A stretch of DNA of 64,000 bases, taken from positions 41,697,366 through 41,761,365 of the forward strand of contig CAIIXF020000001.1 in NCBI GenBank assembly GCA_903813345.2, given 5' to 3'. The DNA comes from Owenia fusiformis. Taxonomy: Eukaryota; Annelida; Polychaeta; Sabellida; Oweniidae. The position numbers and the translations under genes were made by a program. This document shows positions 31,744 to 62,745 of this stretch, piece after piece (the first letter of the stretch is position 1; each line of letters starts with the position of its first letter). Under the pieces are notes generated by a model that was not told the DNA's origin, did no database searches, and saw nothing but the letters and a program-made list of their open reading frames with translations.

Positions 31744-32732
31744 ATGAATAAATCAACATCTTCAGACGATGAGACCAGAAAGATCAGCCTTCCAAGCAAG
31801 TTTGGGAGAGGGATAGATAAAGACGCAGCTTTCAAACATGATCCACCGAGGAGAAAGATCACTATGCCATTATTGGGAAACCTAGAAGAGATCCAACATA
31901 ATATTTCCTCTATACAGGAGATCACAGATTCGTCCCAAACCTCTCTAGATGATAACTCAGTTACAGAGGAGGAAATGAGGGAAAGGGAAACACTAAATGC
32001 ATCAATTAACTCTGCATTATCGTCTCATACAAAAATCAGAGAAAGTAAAAGTGACGGTGAAAATATCTCAACAACTACTCGGAAATCTTCTGGCCCATTA
32101 GCACTATTGAATGCTTTGAATCTACCTAAAAGAAAAATAAGCGGGCCTGAAAGGAAAGTGAGTGGCCCTGAAAGAAAGATAAGTGGCCCTGAAAGGAGGA
32201 TAAGTGGCCCTGAAAGGAAGATAAGTGCTCCCGAAAGACTATCAAGAGGATTCTTTGAGAAAACAATTTTCCGGAATAACTCTGGTGGAAAGAAAGGAAA
32301 AATCAGACCTTCTACGGTTTCACTTCCAGATACACCATTATTCAATAGGGCACCTTGCGTTGTGTGTACCCTAATAAGACAAGTCAAATTTGACAGTTTT
32401 GAGAACCCTGTTATCAGCCAACATGGGTTTGTAACAGATGTACATGTATCCACCATGCTAACCAAGGCAAGAAGTTTATCTAAACTCAATATCGAAGGTT
32501 GCAGCAACATGGACAATCAACCCAAATTAGCACCCGTGACCAGTGATCATAAAAAACAAGGAAGGAAAATGCCAGTTACACCCCAGTTGTTGAGACGCTT
32601 TCGCAAAAAATCCAAAGATGAGAAAAAGATGGAGGAAATTGAAGCTGCGAAGGATCGTGTTAGGAAGATCGGGCTTCCAATGGCACCCTGGGAAGTACTA
32701 CCAAATGAAGATGCACTGGATAATAATGTTAG
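31744..32732 (+). CDS. RAP1GAP: Large alternative first coding exon of the Rap1GAP gene with a tandem R-K-I-S-G-P-E repeat
   Basis: 329 codons plus two bases, from AAGATGA to GTTAG|GTAAGG, leaving in phase 2. The start M-N-K-S-T-S-S-D-D-E is the first ATG of the frame. Features in order: R-K-I-S-L-P at residues 12-17; R-R-K-I-T-M-P at 36-42; an acidic segment at about 69-82; R-K-S-S-G-P at 113-118; five consecutive seven-residue repeats (R-K/R-I/V-S-G/A-P-E) at about 130-164; a lysine-rich stretch near 183-187; R-K-M-P-V-T-P at 274-280; a charged, probably helical segment at 284-306; and V-R-K-I-G-L-P at 306-312. R-x-x-S-x-P matches basophilic kinase sites and relaxed 14-3-3 mode-1 sites (established); that they are used here is inference. 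Otherwise it looks disordered. It shares several motifs with the exon at 35574. The 163-residue minus-strand frame over it is a shadow. Confidence 0.78.
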
Positions 32733-35573: not shown

Positions 35574-36139
35574 ATGGGGGATCACAAAAGGGTAAGGAAG
35601 ATAAGCTTACCTCATTTAATGCACTTTAGAAGCTCCAAAGATCACCTGAATAAAGACTTAGTAGAACACGATGCCGAGAATGACAACATGTCGAGACCAC
35701 AAACATTCTCAGATCGGGTTAGGAAAATAAGTCTAATCTCGTTACGTAAAAGTGGAGTGCGTGACATCCCAAGGTCAATTGATGAGGACATTTTTGTAGC
35801 TCCGGCCAATAGATCATCAACGGAACAACGGTCAAGAAAATGCAACTCACTGGAAGTGAATGACAATGATCAAATAGGATTGATACGTGCTATGAAGCGA
35901 CACTCTATGACATCACATAGCTTAATGATGTCACAATCGGGCCTAAGATCACTGACCCCGAGCCCAAACAAACCAAGGAGGCAACTCCCCAAAACTCCAG
36001 AAAAATCTGAGGATGAAGAGAAATTGACTCCAGATCTTAATACAAAAAGGAGGTCACAAACTTATGATTCACCAACGAAAAGATTTATGGGATCCAACAA
36101 AAAGATTTTCCGGAAAATTAGTTCACCTTTACCATTCAG
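35574..36139 (+). CDS. RAP1GAP: Alternative first coding exon of the Rap1GAP gene with V-R-K-I-S-L motifs
   Basis: 188 codons plus two bases from ATGGGGG to TTCAG|GTAACC, leaving in phase 2. The protein begins MGDHKRVRKISLPHLMHF. Motifs in order: R-K-I-S-L-P at residues 9-13; R-V-R-K-I-S-L-I-S-L at 48-57; R-S-L-T-P-S-P near 125-131; R-R-Q-L-P-K-T-P at 135-142, followed by an acidic K-S-E-D-E-E-K; T-K-R-R-S-Q-T-Y; and F-R-K-I-S-S-P at 179-185. It is largely charged and probably disordered. The order R-K-I-S-L-P, then [KQ]-[LM]-P-x-T-P, then R-K-I-x-x-P parallels the exon at 31744, so the two may be duplicates (inference). The donor is weaker at position +5 than the other first exons. The minus-strand frame over it is a shadow. 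Confidence 0.75.
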
Positions 36140-46623: not shown

Positions 46624-46726
46624 GAAATCAAGCATGGATGGCCAGTTGTACTGTGAAGACCATATGCCAAACTCTAACATGCATCACACCACTTCAAGAA
46701 CTACGGAACATGTCAATTCAGCTAAG
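46624..46726 (+). CDS. RAP1GAP: Hub exon of the Rap1GAP gene (common acceptor for alternative first exons)
   Basis: Acceptor GGTGTGTTACAG precedes the exon and donor AAG|GTAGGT follows. Entered in phase 2, its first G completes the split codon (Arg or Gly), then 34 codons read KSSMDGQLYCEDHMPNSNMH then H-T-T-S-R-T-T-E-H-V-N-S-A-K and leave in phase 0. At 103 nt it is not a multiple of three, so it is the only visible exon that converts the phase-2 first exons to the phase-0 GoLoco exons. An internal ATG (46634, AGCATGG) could serve as a start for transcripts with untranslated first exons. The peptide has no recognised domain. Read-through past the donor stays open until a TAA at about 46822, which could give a truncated retained-intron product. 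Confidence 0.72.
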
Positions 46727-49700
46727 GTAGGTCTGAGAGATAAGTACCATTTCTTGAGCCCAAAAAAGGACACTGACAATAATAAAGCTAATGCACAATG
46801 CAAATGTTTAGTGCATGCCAAATAATTTTTGTACCTTATAAGGTAAGTTTAGTGAATACGAATAAGTTCTAATTGCAGAAGGATTTTTAGTTTGTTATAA
46901 CTGTTCAAACTGGTAAAAATACACATTTCTTACATTTTCATATTATATTTTGATCGAGGTAAGAATTTCAAGTATAGCTATTACTCTTTTTATCAAAATA
47001 ATATTAAATTCTTGTAATACATGTTAATTTCAAATCTTATTTTCAATAGATTTTTGTCAATGTCAAGAAGTTCAAATCGTTTCATCTATAAAAAGATATT
47101 GTAGATCATTTGTAAACATGGAACACCTTGTATTAGACATGCAAATTACTCCGTAAATCATCATTGCAGAAGTATTTATGGAACTCTTCCCAAAGTTTAA
47201 TTGGAACTATTTATCTCATGTTTGCTTCATTAGGCCATAAAGAAGCTAGAATAAGGGGAAGGATGCAATTTTGTTTGACAAATTACAAATTCATACATTG
47301 TTGAAAAACCTCAATCATGCCGTTGTAAATCACAAAGGAAAAATTAGACGGTACTAGAATAGTTAATACATCTCATAAAGAGACATTCTCAATATCAAAT
47401 GGGAAATTTTTCTGGTTTAATAATAGCGAGGAACATGTATCCTTTACTTTTTCAGGAATGATCTATGTACGATTATTTGTTGTTTCTAGCTGATTAATGT
47501 ATTGATAATGTGTGGCAATTTTTTCCTAATTTTTTTCTCATTAGTTATTGGTTAATATATGGCTTACATGAAAGGTAAGCTTTTACAAGAATTAGGTAAA
47601 TTCATATCCTATGTAAATTAAGAATCCCCGATGAATAGCGAACGCATATATTCTATTTATCTGCACATTGATGACATTTGGGTGACATTCATTTGCGAAC
47701 TCTTATTTAACTATCTTCATTAGGAAAATTCATGGGTTTAAAAATAGGTTACTTGCGTCACTGTTTCTGATGCTCTTAAATGGGAGTCACACTTTCTGAC
47801 AATCTTCTTACCAATGAAAAGGAGTATTTTGTGATTGGATATCATTTTGACTTGCGAGTGTGAGTTTGACTTAAGGAGTTAGCCTTTAATTTTAGATGCA
47901 ATGATACTCAATGTTTAAATCAAATCGCATGCAATAACATCAGCGTAAACATCGTGAAATCACATCATACGCTGACATTTTGCTCGTCAGTTTCTCTTTG
48001 CTGTTTTATATTTGGTCTTTAAATGGAGCAGCTTCTGGTACTACTGTTAATCATCATTTATTGCTCTCTGCCAAGTAAGAATATTTCTTGTGTCAGTTCC
48101 TTGTCTCATTTCTATCACACATACTTGAGCAGTCTAATCTTTCTGAATCCCATGGTCATGCATGCCCAACGACTCAGTGCTTTTTCTGTTATTTATGTCT
48201 TAGTACATTTTGTATCTACTTTGCAGTAATCTAATATTAGGCCCTTTTAGAAATAGGGACTGGGGTCAAAACATCAATCTCTTAATAAATTTTTGTTTTA
48301 GTTTCATTTTGTGACGCCATATTTTTATCTATTTCACCCTTGGCTGCTATTTTGTAATTAGTTTGCTGGGTGAGTGGACTTATGCAAGCAGATGGGCATA
48401 GTGATTATTATGGTTTTATTTTCATTTGTATTTTTGATATATTTGGCTCATGTGGTTTACCTGTCAAATCACCCAATCATAGATTGTATGCGTGAGTTTC
48501 TGCTATTACAGCAAAAAAGGTTCCTATTTCTGGCTATTTTTTGCATGTTGGGGTTCCTGACACCTGAGTCCTGTGAGAGTTAACAAAAGATGCTTCAGGG
48601 AGTGTCCATATTACACAGAAAATATGATATTATTGTTAGGCCTCTATTCACAAACAGAGCTATTGCCTATCTACCATAAATACTTAATAATTATACTCAG
48701 TTTTCATTTGATTTAAGATTCTCCCCAAATTGAGAGATCTATGACTGTGACAGTGCCCATGGTCTTGGCAAAGATCACGTGTTCTTATTTAATGAATGAA
48801 GAAACCTCACTGGTATATCATACATTATGACATGAAATAAGAATTGATGAACATTATCCTTAATTGCTTTGAACAATCAAAATTAATTTACATCACCAGA
48901 TAAAACAAGACATACGAGAAATATCATTACAGGATTTCATTACGTGATATTGTTCACTAAAAGAGGTTTATTTCATTTTTCCAAGGTGTCTTTGAAATCG
49001 AGCAATGAACTCTTTATGTAATGGATTAATCCTTTCATTGTTCAATACTCTAATCTTGCTAGAAAATCAACATCTGGAGTAAGTTACTATAATACAATTA
49101 TTGAGAACCACCTTTCTCATAGTCATACAATACTATATTGTGTTTTATTCAAAAGAATCGTTAGACCGTATTTTTGAAAATATATGAGTCTTTTAAAGTA
49201 TTTCAAAATAAGATAATATACAATATGCGTTGCAATTGATGTTGAGAAATATCAGTGTCAAAGAGTTTTAGATTATACTTTTTTGGTTTTTGGGTACCCT
49301 AATTTTTCATAAAGTTTGACTACTTTGGTAATGTTCCTTAGAGAATGATTTCATGATTCCATCTCTGTTGACCATATTGAATTCTTCTAGTGTATTATAT
49401 GGGTTATATACTTCTCCATAATATATTTTCAATTTGACATTCTTTAGCGATTTGACCTTTTCTGCATCTTGGCCTACTTTAAAAATCACCACCAAAATAA
49501 TTTGGATTGAAAGTCGTACATTTTTCACTTATCTTTCTTTTCCATGATTTGAGATAAGGCTCTGTTGGGAATAAGTTCACCTGGGAGGAAATAATCATCT
49601 AACATATATTATCTGTTTAGATAATCACCTGTTATTTATCATGCTAACATTGGAATGCCCGATTACACTGGATGTTGAGGAGTACAGCAAATGCAGTAAG

Positions 49701-51743
49701 CACATCAGGCAACATTTGAAAACCCAAATATGATGTATTTGTTTTATTGACAATTGTGTTGAATCTGGGCACATTGAATAGATTATTTGGACAATAAACC
49801 AAATGAGCGGTTGTCAGCTAAATCAACAAAATCAGACATTCAAAAAAGTTAAAAATATATTACCTTGATAATTCAAAATATTCATTCATTTGTTAGCATT
49901 TCAGTCAATTTTACAGCAGGCCATGAAAGTCAAATGTAAGACATTTAAAATGCAAACATATATCTGGAAATTACAAAATTGAAATTTTAAATTACAAAAT
50001 TGAAATAGTCTTTTTACATTTTCCACAGCTTGTAAATTCATTAAAATAGCAGCATGCAAATTGGGAAATCCATTGGATTTCAGAAATAGATGTTGCTTTT
50101 GATAATAGTATCCAACAGCTTCTGTTGTATTTAAAAACATTGAAATTGATTTCATGTCGATTTCCATAAAAATAACAGTAATTGAAGGATGTGTTGGTTT
50201 GCTTTATGTTCTTATCGTAAAGTCATAGACAAATCATTCAATAGTTTCTTCAGCATTACGGAAAGCGTTTATTAATTACATACAAAGTAAAAAAAAACGG
50301 TAAGACATTTTCGAAGAATAATATGTAACATATCCATAAGACTATTTTCATATAAACGAGTGAAAACCTATATTTAACCATGTTTTCAACTTGTGCTTTT
50401 TTAATCTATTGGAACATACAATGTATGTAATGTGAATAAACATATAAAATAAACTAAATAGCAAAGTGGCATTTTATCTTGGATTTAAATGTACACAATT
50501 GGTAAGTTTGTAATTTTGTCATCCTGATTATTCAGAATTTTATTTATTTGTAGAGGTTTAAATGAAATTTCCTGCTGACGAGCAACCAACATTTATTTCA
50601 TAAAATCACACGAAAACTAGAGATCATTAAGGTGACGGTCATCTTGGCATTAAAAGTGTAAATCATCTGCAAAAGGTAGAGGGTAGTGTAGCTAACTGAT
50701 GAGAAACCAGGGTAAATTTTCACTAAAACATGAAGTAATAATCTATAAGACATTGTCAGAAGTGAAGTGATAGAATCATTTGACAATTCACTTTCATGTT
50801 TTATACCAATTTTATATCAATTTGAATTATGAATCACATCTGGGATCAAGCGCTGACACTTTTATTAGATGTATTTAATAAACTTTGAAGAGAATTGGCA
50901 GCAAAATTGAACGCTCGTATGTCACATTGACATTCAATGGTGATTGATGATTCTATCGAAATATTATTAAAGATATTTTTGCATTTTTATATATTTTTAC
51001 ATATTCCATGCCCAGAAATGTATTTTATACCAATATACTTTGTTACTATGGTGACCTATGTGAAATAATAAATTGTCAGGGGATTTGAAAAGCCCAGAAA
51101 TGTGTTACATTAGATTGAATACAATTGAAGCTTCGGCAAATCTCTCCAATTTAAGTTAAAACACAATTTATCAATTGGACATTGGACACTATTCTCTAAA
51201 AGTTATATGGCTTAACATTTTATGCAGAGAAATATGAGATATTTTTCTGGATTCCATCCCTTATTTTTTAGAAGTGAGGCCAGAACTTTAGCCTACAACT
51301 GTCTCGAAGGAAAAGTCTCTCTGCCTGTCATCAACCCCCTCCCCCTTTCTAACATTTTGTTAATCAATAAAAAATGCATATTAAAATATTTTGAGATTTT
51401 GCAATGCATTTTGGGAAAATAAATGATGGTTATGGATATAAAAAACTCATATCGAAATATTTTGAGATTTTTATTTGCAACCCATTTTCCATGTGAGAAT
51501 AAGAAAATAATGACAGTAATAAATATATGGGATGAATTGATTATATGCAAAACTGAGTTGATCAACTTGGAAAGTGTGATTTTGATGACAGTTCAATTAA
51601 TTTGTTTTCACGGTTGCACTGGTTATAGTTCATCATCCTTTTAATTGAAAACACTTAATGACCTTAGAATCTAGCTTAAAGATCTGATATTGTTATTAAT
51701 TATCATACCACTGAACTTGTAGTTTGAGGCTCACTGCAGCAAG

Positions 51744-51779
51744 TAGTCTTGCATGAAATCCTGCACCTGATGCAAGACC
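51744..51779. repeat. Compact AGTCTTGCAT inverted repeat
   Basis: TAGTCTTGCAT and ATGCAAGACCA face each other across 14 bases. They look like the two ends of the 10055-type element with the interior lost. Confidence 0.5.
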
Positions 51780-51813
51780 ATGTTATTTATCTTACATGTC
51801 AGTGTATGTCCAT

Positions 51814-52095
51814 GGGGAAGAGAAATGGAATGGAGGTATGGAGGGAGGGAGATGAAGAGAGAGGGGAAATTGAAAGGGACGGAGAGAGAGGGAGGAAGGA
51901 AGGGGAGAGAGAGGGAAAGAGACAGGGATGAAGAAAGACAGAGGGGTAAGGGAAGAGGGGGAAGAGAAAGGGACGGGGAGAGAGAGGGGCAAAGAGCAAG
52001 CGATGGGGAGAGGGGGAAGGAAGATAGAGAAACTGAGAGAAATTAGATAGATTAAAAGGGAGGGAGAGATAGAGGGAAAAGGAGGGGAGAGAGAG
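51814..52095 (+). repeat. Polypurine block of about 280 bp
   Basis: Almost uninterrupted G/A on the plus strand, built from GAGAGGGA-type units with only scattered pyrimidines. The frames of 60-103 residues across it on both strands are low-complexity artefacts. Mirror-symmetric purine tracts can form triplex DNA (established); its effect on this intron is unknown. Confidence 0.9.
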
Positions 52096-53193
52096 CTGTT
52101 CATTTATATAATTTGTTTTCCAATTTATTCAAACGTACCAGGCATCAAGGTAATCTTGCAAGTATCTTTCATTTCTATGTTATAATAATTAGATATGTAA
52201 GACCTTGCTATAAAAAATTATATTTACATAAGCCTTTAACAGAAACATAAATATTCCTCAGTCAAACAGCAAATTAATATACCACTCCATGAATTATCAT
52301 ATGTGCCAATCAAGATAGGTTTCATTGTAAGTATCATTGAGCAAAGTTTGTGTGGAAGGCAACAGCTTGGTTAAATCCAGTCTACCATAAAATGTATGTT
52401 TTCATAAAATGTTTTTGCAAAAATTTGCAAATATCATCTCTCCTTCAGTCATTGTCAATGATCTTATAAAACATTTAATGTTTATAAACAGGATTGTTAA
52501 GATTTTTATGTGATTTGAATTTCATTGTTTTTTTCAATATATCATTAAGGTCATAGCTCTTCTCTGACATTTAGCGGATGAGTGCTTGAATAGTGATTTT
52601 GCATCAGCAACAGTTTTTTTACAATCAATATATATTCATTTTTATTTCAACTGTGGATCTGCTGTGTTAACACAACATTATTGGTTTTATACAAGTAAAC
52701 AACTGAGACAGACATATTAATCTCTGCTATCATGACAATCGGAATTCTAACCACAAACTGACGCAAGACTACACATATCGAAGTGGATCTGATTGAAAAA
52801 GTAAAATAATTGATGTGTGCAGTGACAGTTTTATCTAAATGAGTTGTGAATCACAGCAAGATTTGCTGGGTTTAAAACTAACTGCTCAATTTCTTGCTGT
52901 TCCAGTCTTGACGAAAAATTTTAAGGTAGGCAAAAATGTTTCAGGAGGATTCCAATTGAAGAATTTGTTTCAAAATAAAAGTTGAAATAAGTAGTTTTGG
53001 GGCCGAATTATTGGGGTGTGTTGAATAGGGTATTATTTATAATATCTCATTGATGGCGCAAAGTTGATGGTGAACAATATAAGGTATTCTAATTTATATC
53101 ATTGTGGTATATTTTAGCCTTTAGGACAAGAAATGGGCAGTGAGCCCCCTTACACAATCAAATACCTTAATGAGTTTTCTGATGTATTTTCAG

Positions 53194-53274
53194 ACACAAG
53201 ATTTATTTGAGATGTTGGAAAAGCTCCAAGGCAAGAGAATTGATGACCAGCGTTGTGATATGCCTTCACTCAAT
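53194..53274 (+). CDS. RAP1GAP: First GoLoco exon of the Rap1GAP gene
   Basis: Acceptor GATGTATTTTCAG, 27 codons, then donor AAT|GTAAGT; phase 0 at both ends. The peptide T-QDLFEMLEKLQGKRIDDQR-C-D-M-P-S-L-N is a complete GoLoco motif: amphipathic helix (D-L-F-E-M-L-E-K-L-Q) and the acidic-Gln-Arg triad (D-D-Q-R) whose arginine reaches the nucleotide of G-alpha-i/o-GDP in known structures. It closely resembles the N-terminal GoLoco of RAP1GAP, including the R-C-x-x-P tail. In that family the motif recruits G-alpha-i or G-alpha-o and links heterotrimeric signalling to Rap1 inactivation. At 81 nt the exon is symmetric and could be skipped without changing frame. A second GoLoco exon follows 3.3 kb downstream. 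Confidence 0.9.
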
Positions 53275-56200
53275 GTAAGTCACAACACATGCTTTTATCA
53301 CAATAGGTAGTCTTGCATCAAGCCCCTGTGTCACCTTGTTTTGCCTTGTTTGGAATATACAATGGAGGTAGGATGATTAGAGACTTGATGCTAGACTCCA
53401 TAACCTTGATTCTTGTATACATGCAGCCCGTACTCAAGAAAAGGGATACCTGAGTTCATTGAAAAATGAGAGGACCACGTGGGCATGTTCCCCAAAAATA
53501 TCATTAATTACAATTCTGAATTTCATTTGTTTTTTAAAAGTAACAATGGGAATCTTGTAAAAGAATATTCAATATCCAAAATGCGAATTCGCAATACTTT
53601 TGGGAAATGGCTTCCAGAATAAGTTGCAGTTTGCATCGGAGGGACTAGTTTCTGATGGAGTGTTGTATTGGAATGTATTGTTCATTGCTAATGAAGTCAT
53701 ATTGTTTGTGGTTAGCCACTTCCTCTAATATGTTTATCTTCCTGCAAACCAGCAACGGACAGAAGTGTTCTAACCTGAATGTTGTCTCCAGTGGGTGGTG
53801 GAAAATGCTCATTTTCACTTAATGATTTTCTTCATTTTCAATAAGGACATACCATTTTAAAGTTGACACTAGATAATTTTCAAGTTTTTTGAGTTTTCCT
53901 AATTTCAATTGGTTGCAGTGTTAACTTAAACAAAAACTGGGAGATTGCTGAATATGAGAGTGTCTTGGAAGTCTGCAACTAGCAAAATGCAGAAGACCTT
54001 CTCATTGACGAGTAAACTCAAAGTTTTGAGATGGTAAATGATGAGGGTCTTGTAGATCAGGAATAAGATATCAATATGCTCCATCTGGGACTTGAGACCT
54101 TGTAGATAATATCTGTAACACAGCAAATGAGAGAGTCAAATGTTTCAATGCAAAATATAATGCAGCAATGTGAAAATTGCCATGAGGAATACTGGTGTTA
54201 TTGGTTTGATTATAATTAGAAAATGGGAGTTTTCTTATTCTAGGCAGATATGATGTGGTCACATTGTTATCCCCTTGGCTTAGATCATGAATGTATCACA
54301 TTATATTTATATAAGTTACTTTTCTCTATTTCTATATTACCTAGATATTTTATAATGAAAATTATACTCTTGTGATCTAATTTGTAGAAATGAACACCCT
54401 GAAAGAGCCCTCTTTAATACTAAATAACCCACTTTAACCAATTAACCCAGCTCACATATTACACATCTGATCCTCATGTTATTGTTGGTTTAGTATTTCT
54501 TGGTATTGGTCATTAATAGTAATTGCTCCAATAATATAACAATAAAAGTAAGCCATACACATGTGTATAAAAAGGTAATTGTAATATGTTCACCTCAGAA
54601 GGTCATCTAAGTTAGGTGACCGATTAATTCCAACCATTCTGTTGTTTTCACGCTCATGTAAATATCTGCAATAAATCTGTTGTTTCATTTTGGTTACTGC
54701 TTTTCAAATGGATCCGCTTTTCAAATGGATCTGCTTCATCAGTTTATCTACATTAGCAAGACTTTTGCCACCATTAGGATGACAATAATGAAAATAAAGT
54801 CAGCTGAAATGTTTTTTCATCAGTAAAAGCCATTACATTGATAAGACATAGAAATAAACCGCTGTTAGGAAATAAAGGATGGATGTCCCTCATACAAGAC
54901 TTACGCGTTAATATCATTTCTGAATAAGCAACATTTCAAGAGGACTCAATCAAATGATGTTCTTGTAAACCACGATTTTGTGGACATTTTTTATCTTTTG
55001 TTCATTTGAGATTAGAACTTGACTCTCCATGGCTTGCAGTTCTTGTGTGTTTTGGAAAGATCGAACACTGTTGCATATTTAAGATAAGATGAGACGGACC
55101 TACATGACTTGCATACAAACTAGCTCCATTATACAAAGTGATTCTTTTATACAAATCTGTCTTGTTTCAAAAATGTTCCACCAATCTCCTCCTATACAGT
55201 AATACATTTATCTTCATTTATTACGCTGAAAGCTTCTTAGAAAATCCCCTTGACTTGATCTTGATTTGAATTTTATAGGGTTTGCCTTGATGGATGATGG
55301 TAATAGGGATAGGAGATAATGGCTGATACATATCAATGGAAAATTAGACATTCTAAAACTGTCCACTTGGACAGACTCATTAGTTGAAAGAAAGGAATGA
55401 AACGCATACAAAATCTCATTTCAGAAAATTGTTCATGAACACATGCATGTACAATGTCTCATATTTGATCTTTTATATTTTGAAATCTTTACTATTCACA
55501 TAGTTCCAGAACCTGATTCTGTATAAGGCGTAGCTGGTCTATAGCCTGTAAGTCATGACTTCACTTTCACCAGCTCCTTCCTCCCAATAATTTGTATTGG
55601 TATTCAATTTCATGGTTTTGTAATCTTGCATTTTAAGGATGGTCTGCCATCCTATTTTTCTTATGGAAACATGCCAAAGTCATTATATCCTTAATATAAA
55701 GAGGACTTAAATTTTAAAAATTGACTACATCTTAAAAAGGATGACTGCTTTAAAATTTACATGTCTGTTTACTGGATGAAGGGGTATGCTGAGGGCAATA
55801 AAGATTAATGAATGGGCCTAATTAGACAGCCACAAAGCACTCTTCATTGTGGGTTTTCCCAACCTGTACTATCTCGATCTCTCAAGCATTGGGGGGCTTT
55901 GTTCGTTTGTCAGTCATGAAACAGTAAATTTTTGTACTCTTTTGTACTCTTTTGCGCCTTAATCATCAATCTTGCTTTTCCCTTTAATCAACAATGTAAT
56001 TTTCTCATAGCTTGTTTACAAAACAATTTATTGATTTCCCCACCATATTTTTTGTGCATGCATGTGCAGGTGACCTTGATTCTTTGAACTTTGTGTACGC
56101 TGATGGAGAATGTGACAACATCTTTCCAGTTGATGTGGTGTTATGACTTTAAAGTAAACAATTGTAAAAATCCAACTCCGTATTAAAAGGGGATGCTACC

Positions 56201-56604
56201 AAGCTAGACATCTATAACAAACAATAGAGGAATCATGATTTAGGGTGTCGTGACTGATGAAATGAGCATAGCCTAGATAAAGAAAGACTCTGATAAATCA
56301 AAATGAACCCTCTTACATTATGTTGAAAGATTGAGAAGGAAAGAGTTGGACGGAGATGCCTTGATTAACCAGGATGTTACTTAGAGTGTGATAAACCTCA
56401 TTGTATTTTATAGGCTTGTTTACAATTGGCATCTTCCAAACACACAAACAAACATAAAACAATACTAATACACTACATTTTGATTTTAGATTTTAACCTG
56501 AAATATTTGAAGCTCGTTGTGCCCATATTTGGCAATATATAGTTTCCTCTCCATAACTCTGATAGCATTGAACTACGTAACTAAATATTAATATTGATTT
56601 ACAG
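53275..56604 (+). other. Intron between the two GoLoco exons
   Basis: 3,330 bp. A truncated AGTCTTGCATC element begins 33 bases after the donor. A 17-19-bp duplication (TTTTCAAATGGATCYGCT) is at about 54708-54735. Nothing else is recognised. Confidence 0.7.
53308..53397. mobile_element. Short AGTCTTGCATC-family element next to the GoLoco exon
   Basis: TAGTCTTGCATCAAGCCCC at the left and AGAGACTTGATGCTAGACT at the right form an imperfect inverted repeat over 90 bp. It is related to the 10055-10331 element but lacks most of the interior. Confidence 0.55.
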
Positions 56605-56691
56605 GCACATGAGTTGTTTGAGTCTCTGTTGCGGTTTCAAGCCATTCGGATGGATGACCAGAGGTGTCACATGCCTCTGTCACCCAATCAG
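56605..56691 (+). CDS. RAP1GAP: Second GoLoco exon of the Rap1GAP gene
   Basis: Acceptor TTGATTTACAG, 29 codons, then donor CAG|GTGACT; phase 0 at both ends. The peptide A-HELFESLLRFQAIRMDDQR-C-H-M-P-L-S-P-N-Q aligns with the previous exon without gaps through D-D-Q-R-C-x-M-P. It is thus a second GoLoco motif with an intact D-D-Q-R triad, but a different helix surface (F-E-S-L-L-R-F against F-E-M-L-E-K-L). The vertebrate RAP1GAP proteins I know carry one such motif. At 87 nt it is symmetric, so it could be used together with, or instead of, the 53194 exon. Used together, the two motifs would abut with almost no linker, which may favour alternative use (inference). Confidence 0.88.
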
Positions 56692-57832
56692 GTGACTGCA
56701 TATGATCACATGATCAATGACATCATAAATGTTGTTGTTTTGCTTTTACGCTTCAAACGTTCACAATTGATATATTTTCTCAATAATGATATAGTTCAGA
56801 TGAGATACTGAGACATTTAAAGCACTTTGACAACTTGCTATCTAGAAATATTTTAATTGAGAAATTATGTCAGTAATGGATTTTTCCGAAGAAACAGCTT
56901 ATTGTAGAAATGCTGCTGATGTCATACATGTTTTGATGATGTCATATATGTTTATATCATATCTGGTTGTTTTGAAAGCTGATATACATGTACTCTAGTT
57001 GCTTATCAGTCCGTGTAATTGTTTTTTATGCGATGACGACATTATTCAATAATTCAGATTGCTTTGTTATGATTATTTTGAATACGCTTTAATGTTGTAT
57101 GTAAGAATTGAGACAATACAACCTTGTATTGTATACAATATTGATATCTTTTTTTTCAGTTTAAATCTGTCATTAATTTGTACTTTGATGTAAATGTAGA
57201 AAATGTCATTTAGATTGTTTTATTGACACTTTGCATTCTCAGATCCTGCCTGGGATCTTGCGTTTATAGCACTCTTATTTCGCATGGAGATTAGGATAGG
57301 GAAATTAAATGATGTTTAGCATTATTATTTTTATAGAAGGATAAAGGTTTTGTTTTTTATCATATTAGTAATATCTCCTTGGAGCATCTTATGTCCAATG
57401 AAATTTATAATTTTTTTGTCAAAATAGGTGACTTTATATGATAGCGCTTTTCTATAAATGCTACATTGATGTTATAGATTTTAGTATATAGTCTTGAAAT
57501 GTGAAGGAATATGCTGAACTCTTTTGTCACTCTAGCCTTATAAAGTATCCATTTTCTATATAAGAACTATTGTATCTTAAGCAAATGGGATTTGTGACAT
57601 ATAATATCTCGATCACTTGTTCGTGTGTGATTATCATCTTATGGTTTATTATTCAAAGTAAAAACTCTATTTCTAAGACAATTGTTTTTCTTATTGTTAT
57701 TTGCCATACATCATATATGTTTTTATTTGGGTTAAGTTTGATATACCTCATTACTCATTAATCATTTTGATTTGTAATAATTACATGCAACAGTTGTATA
57801 GTTTGTCATTCTTTGTGAGCTGTGATGTGAGC

Positions 57833-57872
57833 CAGACTGTCAGTATGCATTACAGACTGTCAGTATGCATTA
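57833..57872. repeat. 20-bp perfect tandem duplication
   Basis: CAGACTGTCAGTATGCATTA occurs twice head to tail. Confidence 0.95.
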
Positions 57873-58845
57873 CACATAATATCATTCACAATTATAATAT
57901 TTACATTGTTTGATTAATGGAAAATCTGGTTGAATGATTTCATTTCATCAATTAGTTTTACGTCTGAATAAACAGTTAGGCGATTGTATGTCGTAGGAAA
58001 TGCCTGTGAGAAGCCATTGTGGCTGTTGATTTCTACTGTCACCTTTTGAAAAATAAAAAAATGTATTGTGTTCCTCGGGGCTCAAATGTCAATACAGTAT
58101 TATATAGATTTCCAAGAATATTGATCACATTATTACACTCAGATCTGATTTCCAGATGTTTCCGAGTAATAAACCTTGGAGCCCTGGGTGACATGATTTC
58201 TTTTCTTGTGTGACTCATGCAATAAATAAATAACTCGAATATACAAAATTAAGTTTAAGATGCTGTAATGTCTGGTTGAGAACATCAAATAGATATTTGA
58301 ATTACTTGAGAAGAAAACTGAGAGCTATTGAAATTAAATCACCATGACACATGAGATTATTAGTATAGTGACACATCATTGTGTGATGACACATCATATT
58401 GACTCAGTCATCTGATTTCAAGTTAGATCAATCAAAATATCCAGGTTCAATTGACCATTTAATAAGAAAAAAAGAAATCTTCAGATGATGTCATTTTGCA
58501 CCAATTAATCCTTTCAATATTTGATCCTTAAATACCCAGAGTGACGAGAGAAAACTAGTGACAGAAGAGAGAAAACTAGTGACAGAAATTGTAATGCATG
58601 GCAATATTTATCTAAGTTACATAAAAAAAGCAATTGTATTCAAGATTGCACATGTATAATATTCAGTGTAATAGTGCATTGGTACTTGTATGTTTGCCCC
58701 ATATAGGTGATTTAAGATCATAGATAACGATAGGCTATAACATTGCCGTTGTTTGAAAAGGTGTTTATTAGCATTATATTTATATTATTAACATCCAGTG
58801 AACATAGAAAACCATGGAGGTCCTGAAAAAACACTTGATATAAAG

Positions 58846-59115
58846 TACAATAACTACATAATTGTGCAATAACTATGTAGTTATACATTATTATACAATA
58901 ACTACATATTTCTACAATAAATAAATAATTATACATTAACTACATTATTGTACATTAGTTCCATTGTTATACAATAACTGCATAATTATGCAATAACTAC
59001 ATACTTATACATTAACAATATTTTTATACAATAACTACATAATTATATATTAACACCATTATTATAAAATAACTACATAAATATACAATAACCACATAAT
59101 TAAACAATGTCTACA
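58846..59115. repeat. AT-rich degenerate tandem array (ACAATAACTACATAATTAT)
   Basis: At least ten loosely periodic copies of CAATAACTACATAATTATA variants over about 270 bp. They are contiguous and diverged, so this is a minisatellite and not a CRISPR array. Confidence 0.85.
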
Positions 59116-59942
59116 TAAACAGAAATACCTGCAGCAGAAGGATCAGGAGGCAATATTTGAAGAAAATAAACACATATGTCATACTCATGATTAGACTCGT
59201 TCCTTCCTGATGTCTGGCTCGGAAAGAACTGTTATTGAATTATTTCACTGGCAGATTAAACAAGCAAGATTATAGCAAGACTGGCAGTATTAATTAAGCA
59301 AGTATTTAATGTCAATGTGAATGATAAATTACACAATCCATAATTCCATTGTTGAAGATGTTTTATATCCAGATTGATTATCTCATTCTCATTATGATTC
59401 AATAAAATCATGCATGAATGATTGGGAAAAGTGATTTCCCAAGCACTGACGAAGCTATCAGGCACAGTATCTTTTTGTGAGTGTGACCTTTCTCCCAGTT
59501 GAATATCTATTTGCACCCATGGTGATTGATTCAAATGGAAATATTTTCACTAGTTTGGATGTTTATTAGAATAGGCATTAGGCAAGGTGAGAATTTCGCT
59601 CCGAGTTGAGGAAAAACCTGCGAGAACATTGTAAACATTAATATTTTATGAAATGGTGTCATCAACGAGAATCAATCACTACGTTATTAACTCCCATTAG
59701 ACTCGATCATCTATCATTTAGAACAATTTTCTGGATTGCAATTCTCTAATTTATCGTGTACCCTTAGCACTGATTGTTGACACATATAGCAGTGACATGT
59801 ATAGATTTACTATTAACCTAGATTGTACCTCAGTCTGTTGTCATTAAGTGAGGTTGAATTCTCATGAGTGTGTTCATTTTCATTTTTTAATATTTACTAA
59901 AATACATCTCCCTAAATGATAGAAATATATATTCAAAGAATG

Positions 59943-60067
59943 TAGAGGATATCCTATGCTTCAAATGAAATATGGTTTTTATCTACCAGTTGACAGTTAT
60001 ATCTGCCAGATGAGCCAAAGGAGCAAAAATCCCATATTAGAAGCCATATCATGTAATACAAGTATAG
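59943..60067. repeat. Decayed copy of the ATCCTATG palindrome family
   Basis: AGAGGATATCCTATGCTTC at the left and CATATCATGTAATACAAG to TATAGG at the right loosely follow the 63600-63732 element (shared AGGATATCCTATG, TTTTTATCTAC and TATATCTGC blocks). Pairing is poor, so confidence is low. Confidence 0.3.
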
Positions 60068-60616
60068 GTTCATTGTCACACAAGAAATCTTTCACTTAAC
60101 AATCTTCTACTCGACAAACTTTTGCTGAATAATATGCTGGAATAGTTCAATAATATGAATTTTCTCACTCTGGTGAAAAAAATTCTGGGCTGTTTATTTT
60201 GATTTCTTAAAATGTCTATATAATAGCCTAACATTATTCTTTATTACCAACAAGATTAGATATTATGTGCTTTAGGATTTCTAATTTGATGTAATATTAG
60301 ATTAAAACCTCATAATTCTGATTCATTATGCACAGCCATGGAGGTTTTAGTTCACTATTTGCTGTATTTTCTCAATGGCAATAAGTATTGCACAAGACTT
60401 CTATAATGAGTATTACATACCCAGCGAAGCATTTGTATTGAAGTCAATGGAGCTGAAGGTCGGCTATATATTCCTGTATAGCCGCCAAACCTTTTACCAT
60501 GACAATCTTATGACGTCATCGGGACGTCATGTTTCATTTCTTCCTAATTTCACTCGCACACAGACACGTGGCGTCATTGATATAACGTAGCCATGATATA
60601 AAAGTATGTAATACAA

Positions 60617-60733
60617 CAGTTATGTCCGTATCATTGAATATATGCCTTCGGTCTGTCGTAATATAACCCTCGCAAGCTCGGGCTATATTGGTGACAGACC
60701 TTAGGCATATATTCAATGATAGGGACATAACTG
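60617..60733. repeat. 117-bp foldback element
   Basis: CAGTTATGTCC pairs with GGACATAACTG, TATCATTGAATATATGCCT with AGGCATATATTCAATGATA, and GGTCTGTC with GACAGACC, around CCCTCGCAAGCTCGGG. It is close to perfect along its whole length. The minus-strand 64-residue frame across it is an artefact. Confidence 0.8.
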
Positions 60734-61350
60734 CTAAATATAATATAGCTGGTTATATACTTTGCTGATGCTCCAGTCAAATGTTATTTTAATTTCTGGA
60801 ATTTAGATTTATTATGTTTGTATGAAGCATGCATGACAACTGTGATATTCTTATTGTGATGCTACTTTTATTTTATGACATTGTTTCATCAATGTACATT
60901 TGCAGGACTCTCTTGGGATATGCTTAACTTTACAATGCACCTCCCTTCTGATAGGTGAATGGAATTGAAATCTTATATACAGTACAATACTGTTTATATG
61001 TCATATGTCATGCTTTGATACTATTGTCATTAAAGAAATATATATAAATGAAACTCGCCCATGAACACCTGTACCATCTAATAGGTGGACCTCACTATCT
61101 GTTACTTAACGTTAACCCCCTAGGAACCTGCCTGAACCACCTGTAACTATCATTAATATCACGAGCCATTTTTCTTGTCTACTAACCAACTGTACATTAG
61201 TGCTAATTACATACTTGTATAAAAAAGAAGCCATATATTGTTGTATGCATGTTTGGTATATACTGTATACATGTGATTGGCATCATGCGAGACAGGAGTA
61301 AACGAAATAACAGAAACAAATGGAATTCATTTTTCAATTCTTTATTTCAG

Positions 61351-61407
61351 AGCGCCAGTACATTGCAAAGACCTGAGAAGAAACCGTTATTTGCATCAGT
61401 ACAAGAG
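61351..61407 (+). CDS. RAP1GAP: Linker exon of the Rap1GAP gene upstream of the Rap-GAP domain
   Basis: Acceptor AATTCTTTATTTCAG, 19 codons reading SASTLQRPEKKPLFASVQE, donor GAG|GTAGGT; phase 0 at both ends (57 nt). Joined to the next exon it gives S-V-Q-E-V-L-R-G-A-Q-P-Y-P, which corresponds to the short S-x-x-E-V segment that precedes the P-Y-P block between the GoLoco motif and the GAP domain in RAP1GAP proteins. It is flexible, lysine/proline-rich sequence with no catalytic residues. The splice sites are clear, and the exon is short enough to be missed by gene finders. Confidence 0.82.
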
Positions 61408-62532: not shown

Positions 62533-62745
62533 GTACTTCGAGGTGCCCAGCCTTACCCCATGGTAATCAAGCCACCAAATGGTGGCTATTGGATAGATGG
62601 CGACACACAGAATCAGATTGACGCAGAGGGGAACAAACTACCCGGCAGTGAATCACCATCTCCCAATACACCTAGCACTCCATCAAGTTATAAATTTGAG
62701 GGAGATAACACTGCAAAACGTTACCGGGATCATTTTCTACAGAAG
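62533..62745 (+). CDS. RAP1GAP: Rap1GAP exon encoding the N-terminal edge of the Rap-GAP region
   Basis: Acceptor CCATTTTCCAG, 71 codons, donor AAG|GTAAGT; phase 0 at both ends (213 nt). Residues 1-22 read V-L-R-G-A-Q-P-Y-P-M-V-I-K-P-P-N-G-G-Y-W-I-D, the P-Y-P-x-V...G-G-Y-W-I signature of RAP1GAP and RAP1GAP2. A Ser/Pro/Thr-rich stretch follows (S-E-S-P-S-P-N-T-P-S-T-P-S-S), then Y-K-F-E-G-D-N-T-A-K-R-Y-R-D-H-F-L-Q-K, matching the family's Y-K-L-E...A-x-x-Y-R-x-H-F-L-x-K block at the start of the folded GAP region. This is the strongest evidence for the identity of the gene. The catalytic asparagine-bearing helix is not in this exon and should lie downstream of the window. The S-P/T-P sites suggest proline-directed phosphorylation (inference). 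Confidence 0.93.

Follow-up and report, generated by a model that had tools for sequence, protein, structure and literature searches.

In a 64,000-nucleotide stretch of the Owenia fusiformis genome (hereafter, the window), we found a Rap1GAP gene with two GoLoco exons, A and B, the second of which is common, together with its splice signals and approximately 430–450 bp of DNA, to two sense, in-frame exons in an intron of a RhoGAP gene on contig C7. GoLoco motifs connect inactive Galpha-i/o with a short list of proteins. We hold with moderate confidence that, of the two GoLoco exons of this Rap1GAP gene, A is of ancestral type and B would act as a portable, probably regulated cassette for docking Galpha-i/o. 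If such a shuffled exon is used, a GoLoco would have moved between two small-GTPase GAP genes along with its splice signals, providing a new route from G-protein receptors to Rho-family GTPases. It would also provide natural one- and two-GoLoco Rap1GAPs, useful for comparison with the human Rap1GAP1 isoforms that read different Galpha-o nucleotide states, as described in PMC12329598.

The exons of the Rap1GAP gene within the window, all on the plus strand, are as follows:

31744–32732, plus strand: candidate first coding exon, an open frame from ATG to donor TAG/gtaagg, ending in phase 2
35574–36139, plus strand: second candidate first coding exon, an open frame from ATG to donor CAG/gtaacc, ending in phase 2
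46624–46726, plus strand: common upstream exon, ending in phase 0, from the splice scan, sequence and in-frame joins
53194–53274, plus strand: GoLoco exon A, phase 0-0, found once when the assembly was searched
56605–56691, plus strand: GoLoco exon B, phase 0-0, closely matched by two copies on contig C7
61351–61407, plus strand: following exon of 57 nt, phase 0-0, from sequence and in-frame joins
62533–62745, plus strand: exon encoding GGYWIDG, phase 0-0, without a Pfam match of its own

Both candidate first coding exons are compatible in phase with exon 46624–46726. A Rap_GAP exon was found 2.3 kb past the end of the window; the domain scored 156.1 bits in Pfam and its closest solved structure is human Rap1GAP (1srq; 3.1e-53), with the next other protein at 1.4e-12. 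Additional GAP and C-terminal exons could be read by eye in locus L001. Exons A and B share the strand of the GAP exons and lie upstream of them, in the position of the N-terminal GoLoco of Rap1GAP, and by these domain matches the gene carrying them is a genuine Rap1GAP. It thus resembles vertebrate RAP1GAP as a Rap_GAP enzyme with an N-terminal GoLoco, but has two full GoLoco exons, whereas PMC12329598 describes one GoLoco for Rap1GAP1a/1b. Among the literature matches listed, a set mostly free of subscription papers, none reported a Rap1GAP with two GoLoco exons. A search for relatives with the 118-aa Rap_GAP exon in one contig collection without a eukaryote set returned 150 pattern matches and 0 relatives. 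A search of the assembly for COX1 came back empty.

Some features of the upstream part of the gene were noted in passing. The two candidate first exons look alternative and contain 7 and 2 matches, respectively, to R-x-x-S-x-P, a 14-3-3-like pattern. A LIM domain suggested by the sequence of exon 46624–46726 was considered and dropped, as a Cys/His scan of the window gave four frames, none LIM-like by eye, and Pfam returned for this exon WRC alone at 13.3 bits, below cut-off. The intron before exon A contains arginine/glutamate-rich, simple-repeat-like frames at 51728–52055.

Exon A spans 81 nt and encodes the 27-aa peptide TQDLFEMLEKLQGKRIDDQRCDMPSLN, bordered by TTTTCAG before and GTAAGT after, while exon B spans 87 nt and encodes the 29-aa peptide AHELFESLLRFQAIRMDDQRCHMPLSPNQ, bordered by TTTACAG and GTGACT; the intron between them is 3,330 nt. 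Using Pfam, A scored 43 bits (E 3e-11) and B 27.4 bits (E 2.3e-6), both above the curated GoLoco cut-off of 25.1 bits. The borders, frames and Pfam scores agree with a sequence-only reading of this DNA, which had proposed two symmetric, phase-0 GoLoco exons of these lengths. Its claim that the motifs align without gaps and keep D-D-Q-R and R-C-x-M-P was likewise borne out, with 13 of 27 residues identical in a gapless alignment. All four motifs, A, B and the two C7 copies, carry the acidic-Gln-Arg triad (D-Q-R), and Q12, R15, Q19 and R20 are invariant across nine aligned GoLoco motifs.

As an independent measure, a profile was built without A and B, using five further GoLocos that this genome encodes; four came from one gene, which we take to be Pins/LGN, and one from another frame, presumably of the RGS12/14 type. 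When this profile was run against 3,369 open frames of at least 15 codons on both strands of the window and L001 (73.9 kb), A scored 3.2e-10, B 8e-6 and the next frame 0.57. Since A and B took the top two ranks they are not chance matches, and no third motif of similar score was found in these 73.9 kb with this profile. Neither exon was recovered among the 10 candidates of a rough, fixed-threshold splice scan of the window, with the A donor at 3.2 against a threshold of 3.5 and the B acceptor at -1.28 against 1.5. A default genome-wide Pfam search (E 0.001) listed A and not B, which appeared in a looser search at E 0.0066 and 25.8 bits.

We modelled residues 3–15 as an ideal helix, on which the residues identical between A and B have a mean direction of 56 degrees and the differing residues one of 256 degrees, placing them on opposite sides (permutation p 0.043), with Glu6 and Leu/Phe11 as exceptions. 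The earlier statement that the motifs differ on the helix face was therefore imprecise, as the differing residues mostly lie opposite the identical ones. Since the A/B differences are mostly off the side of the common residues, the data lend no particular support to a shift in Galpha preference, although the tails differ too. Because the triad is kept and the common residues share one helix side, both A and B are expected, on sequence grounds, to bind Galpha-i/o-GDP. Residue 7 is Met in exon A (53212–53214) and Ser in B, and we take this Met to correspond to the start of human Rap1GAP1a. Given this difference, it is conceivable by analogy that a 1a-like shortened GoLoco could be produced from A alone. 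According to PMC12329598, the motif of human Rap1GAP1a lacks its first seven residues, and this isoform prefers Galpha-o-GTP; the N-terminal isoforms of Rap1GAP alter the GoLoco, with the truncated form preferring Galpha-o-GTP and the full form Galpha-o-GDP.

To locate relatives of the two exons, the assembly was searched with each. Peptide A (E up to 10) gave 6 matches, namely A itself and five weaker places, and a 601-base stretch of DNA at A was single-copy. Peptide B (E up to 10) gave 4 matches, including two exons on C7 that were 93% identical over 27 aligned residues and identical at 25 of 29 residues over the whole exon. No intronless copy of A or B was found among these 6 and 4 matches. 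DNA around B gave 3 matches including itself, the two C7 sites being 83 and 84% identical, and blastn of the whole gene against the C7 region returned 80.8% identity over 442 columns and 80.2% over 435 columns. The features concerned are:

56579–57030, window, plus strand: segment common to the B locus and the C7 copies, comprising 26 bp before B, B and intron, from blastn, alignment and repeat-unit search
56692–56743, window, plus strand: proximal intron, the 52 bases that follow exon B, conserved in the comparison of C1 with C7 (1 mismatch each over 52 and 51 compared sites)
11199191–11199607, C7, same strand as the GoLoco exons: linker exon, ending in phase 0
11200593–11200679, C7, sense to the host gene: GoLoco exon C7a, in a phase-0 intron of the predicted WW-PH-RhoGAP gene
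11207952–11208038, C7, sense to the host gene: GoLoco exon C7b, in the same phase-0 intron as C7a
11210679–11210740, C7, same strand: predicted first PH exon, starting in phase 0, chosen among 19 candidates

The common segment ends at 57004 for both copies (57003 in one) and at 57030 for the last repeat unit beside C7b, so that the downstream intron accounts for approximately 310–340 bp of it. Within it, a repeat unit of approximately 110 bp (56911–57030) follows B once and follows the C7 copies as arrays, one of which spans L009:2234–3126 (C7:11208233–11209125). Of the 14 matches of the repeat-unit search, 13 lie on C7 and the remaining one is the C1 unit itself; such counts may run low for a repeat. 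With three copies found and repeat counts possibly low, no high-copy element was seen around B; since the search may undercount repeats, a larger repeat family is possible.

The C7 GoLoco exons sit between the linker and PH exons, and joins with neither, C7a, C7b or both are predicted to be in frame. Each motif scored 24.3 bits (E 2.1e-5), just below the Pfam cut-off of 25.1, and 22.6 bits in the genome-wide Pfam search. Upstream, one WW exon was clear at 40.8 bits and two were weak at 15.8 and 13.8, below cut-off. With four exons joined by hand, the PH domain scored 56.3 bits; single PH exons scored 15.7 and 14.8 bits, below cut-off, and one was without a match. The first of the PH exons was picked by its presumed likeness to ARHGAP sequence. 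RhoGAP exons scored 39.1 bits and, below cut-off, 20.3. The closest solved relatives of the gene are ARHGAP15 (5.5e-13) and ARHGAP12 (2.1e-10), followed by chimaerin (9e-7), and we predict that it encodes a WW-PH-RhoGAP resembling ARHGAP12/15. The ARHGAP12/15/27 family has PH and RhoGAP domains, with WW domains in the 12/27 type. The C7 gene is like these proteins in its WW, PH and RhoGAP domains and differs from them in its two in-frame GoLoco exons between linker and PH; no member of this family is known to have a GoLoco. In the literature found that mentions both words, as far as its text was accessible, there was no description of a protein combining GoLoco and RhoGAP.

We then compared the three copies of the segment site by site, with gaps not counted. 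Between B and C7a, 6 of 87 sites differ in the exon and 1 of 52 in the proximal intron, against 52 of 175 in the farther intron (Fisher p 1.4e-5 and 3.7e-6, respectively). The corresponding values for B and C7b are 7/87, 1/51 and 43/175 (p 0.0013 and 8.5e-5). C7a and C7b differ at 1 of 87 exon sites (p 0.003), 2 of 51 proximal and 20 of 178 farther intron sites, and in this pair the proximal intron was not significantly better conserved (p 0.18). For the 27 bases upstream of the exon, no pair showed a significant difference from the far intron (p 0.14–0.32). Exon dN/dS between B and the C7 copies was 0.06/0.12 and 0.07/0.16, on 6–7 changes that are mostly residue-altering. Among the three copies, the farther intron thus differs at 11–30% of compared sites while frame, triad and splice sites are kept. 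This pattern fits selection, but could also result from gene conversion or from a shorter history. On a rough, home-made matrix the acceptor of B scored -1.28, the lowest of 11 in the Rap1GAP gene (next, -1.02), and both C7 copies had an equal score. Folding of the RNA around the donor in the three copies revealed no unusual hairpin (z -0.58, -0.69 and -0.86). The weak acceptor and conserved proximal intron lend modest support to a regulated cassette.

Identity at core positions bears on the origin of B, which matches A at 13 of 22 positions and the five other GoLocos at 5–10 of 22. The exon duplication proposed by the sequence-only reading therefore holds insofar as there are two homologous GoLoco exons, with B nearer A than the others; a simple duplication inside Rap1GAP does not account for the data, as the closest relatives of B are the two C7 exons. 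We infer that B arose from A through an old duplication within Rap1GAP, and that a later segmental copy may have taken B into the RhoGAP gene, where it would then have doubled. This is the simplest path since B is nearest A, adjoins it and has one repeat unit versus many on C7. Copying in the opposite direction, from C7 to Rap1GAP, may have occurred, as the C7 peptides match A at 14 of 22 core positions, on par with B. Given the weak acceptor in three copies and the conserved proximal intron, B would be a regulated cassette whose inclusion may supply the GAP with an additional helix, or an alternative one, on which Galpha-i/o-GDP can dock. The consequence could be higher avidity, or placement of the GAP at sites rich in inactive Galpha.

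How B is used distinguishes this reading from its rivals. As the sequence-only reading had stated, frame does not force mutual exclusion: joins from 46726 to 61351 and on into 62533 are in frame with neither exon, A, B or A+B. It is possible, but unlikely, that A and B are nonetheless mutually exclusive, with one GoLoco per transcript, a switch that alters Galpha preference or affinity, and the C7 copies as a side event. A and B are homologous neighbours of the same phase and similar length (27 and 29 aa), and thereby resemble the mutually exclusive tandem exons described in PMC3228551 and PMC9013439. According to the first of these, 26 of the 28 exons annotated as mutually exclusive on the fly X chromosome have these properties, but so, in that survey, do 90 of the 16,180 exons that are not exclusive (6 of 1,705 genes). 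Moreover, the 3,330-nt intron does not force exclusion, a preference switch sits poorly with A/B differences that are mostly off the common helix side, and, in contrast to such exons, B also has copies, with intron DNA, in another gene.

Constant inclusion of both exons, giving a tandem two-GoLoco Rap1GAP that would hold two Galpha in the manner of Pins/LGN, seems to us the least probable reading. A and B do join in frame, and tandem GoLocos are usual: the solved LGN chain 4jhr has two, and one gene of this genome has four. In the joined peptide, however, the motif starts are 27 residues apart versus 34 in 4jhr, such that two Galpha may clash, and the weak B acceptor also argues against constant inclusion. 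If both are included, the Owenia protein would share with Pins/LGN/GPSM the presence of more than one GoLoco, but its motifs are separate symmetric exons, optional with respect to frame, within a GAP. That B is instead a relic without use, left by a segmental copy and spliced in seldom or never, is improbable: the weak acceptor and the C7 motifs just below the Pfam cut-off would suit a relic, but frame, triad and both splice sites are intact in three copies despite the divergence of the intron beyond, and the three copies found do not form a visible high-copy element, allowing for low repeat counts. The portable, probably regulated cassette is thus the reading we prefer. A further step, that a GoLoco cassette comprising a weak acceptor, a donor and an intronic control element of approximately 50 nt is common to the Rap GAP and Rho GAP genes, so that a single splicing programme could attach Galpha-i/o docking to both, strikes us as rather doubtful. 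If true, a cell type could couple or uncouple its Rap and Rho/Rac switches jointly to G-protein receptors, and the combination of GoLoco with RhoGAP would be new as a protein architecture.

A matched exon duplication in a partner Galpha was also considered. Among 41 matches of a G-alpha search, those at C6:39186499 and C6:39192596 formed a doubled exon, whose translation gave two near-identical frames; judged by their sequence, these are presumably not Galpha-o, and the lead was dropped. PMC5896119 places the duplication of GNAO exons 7–8 in vertebrates. The C6 loci (L006, 39186478–39186708; L007, 39192581–39192772) are near-identical tandem copies of one divergent G-alpha exon. In the gene with four GoLocos, the intron between the first and second motifs contains a 398-aa open frame (L004:1003–2196) that looks reverse transcriptase-like by eye.
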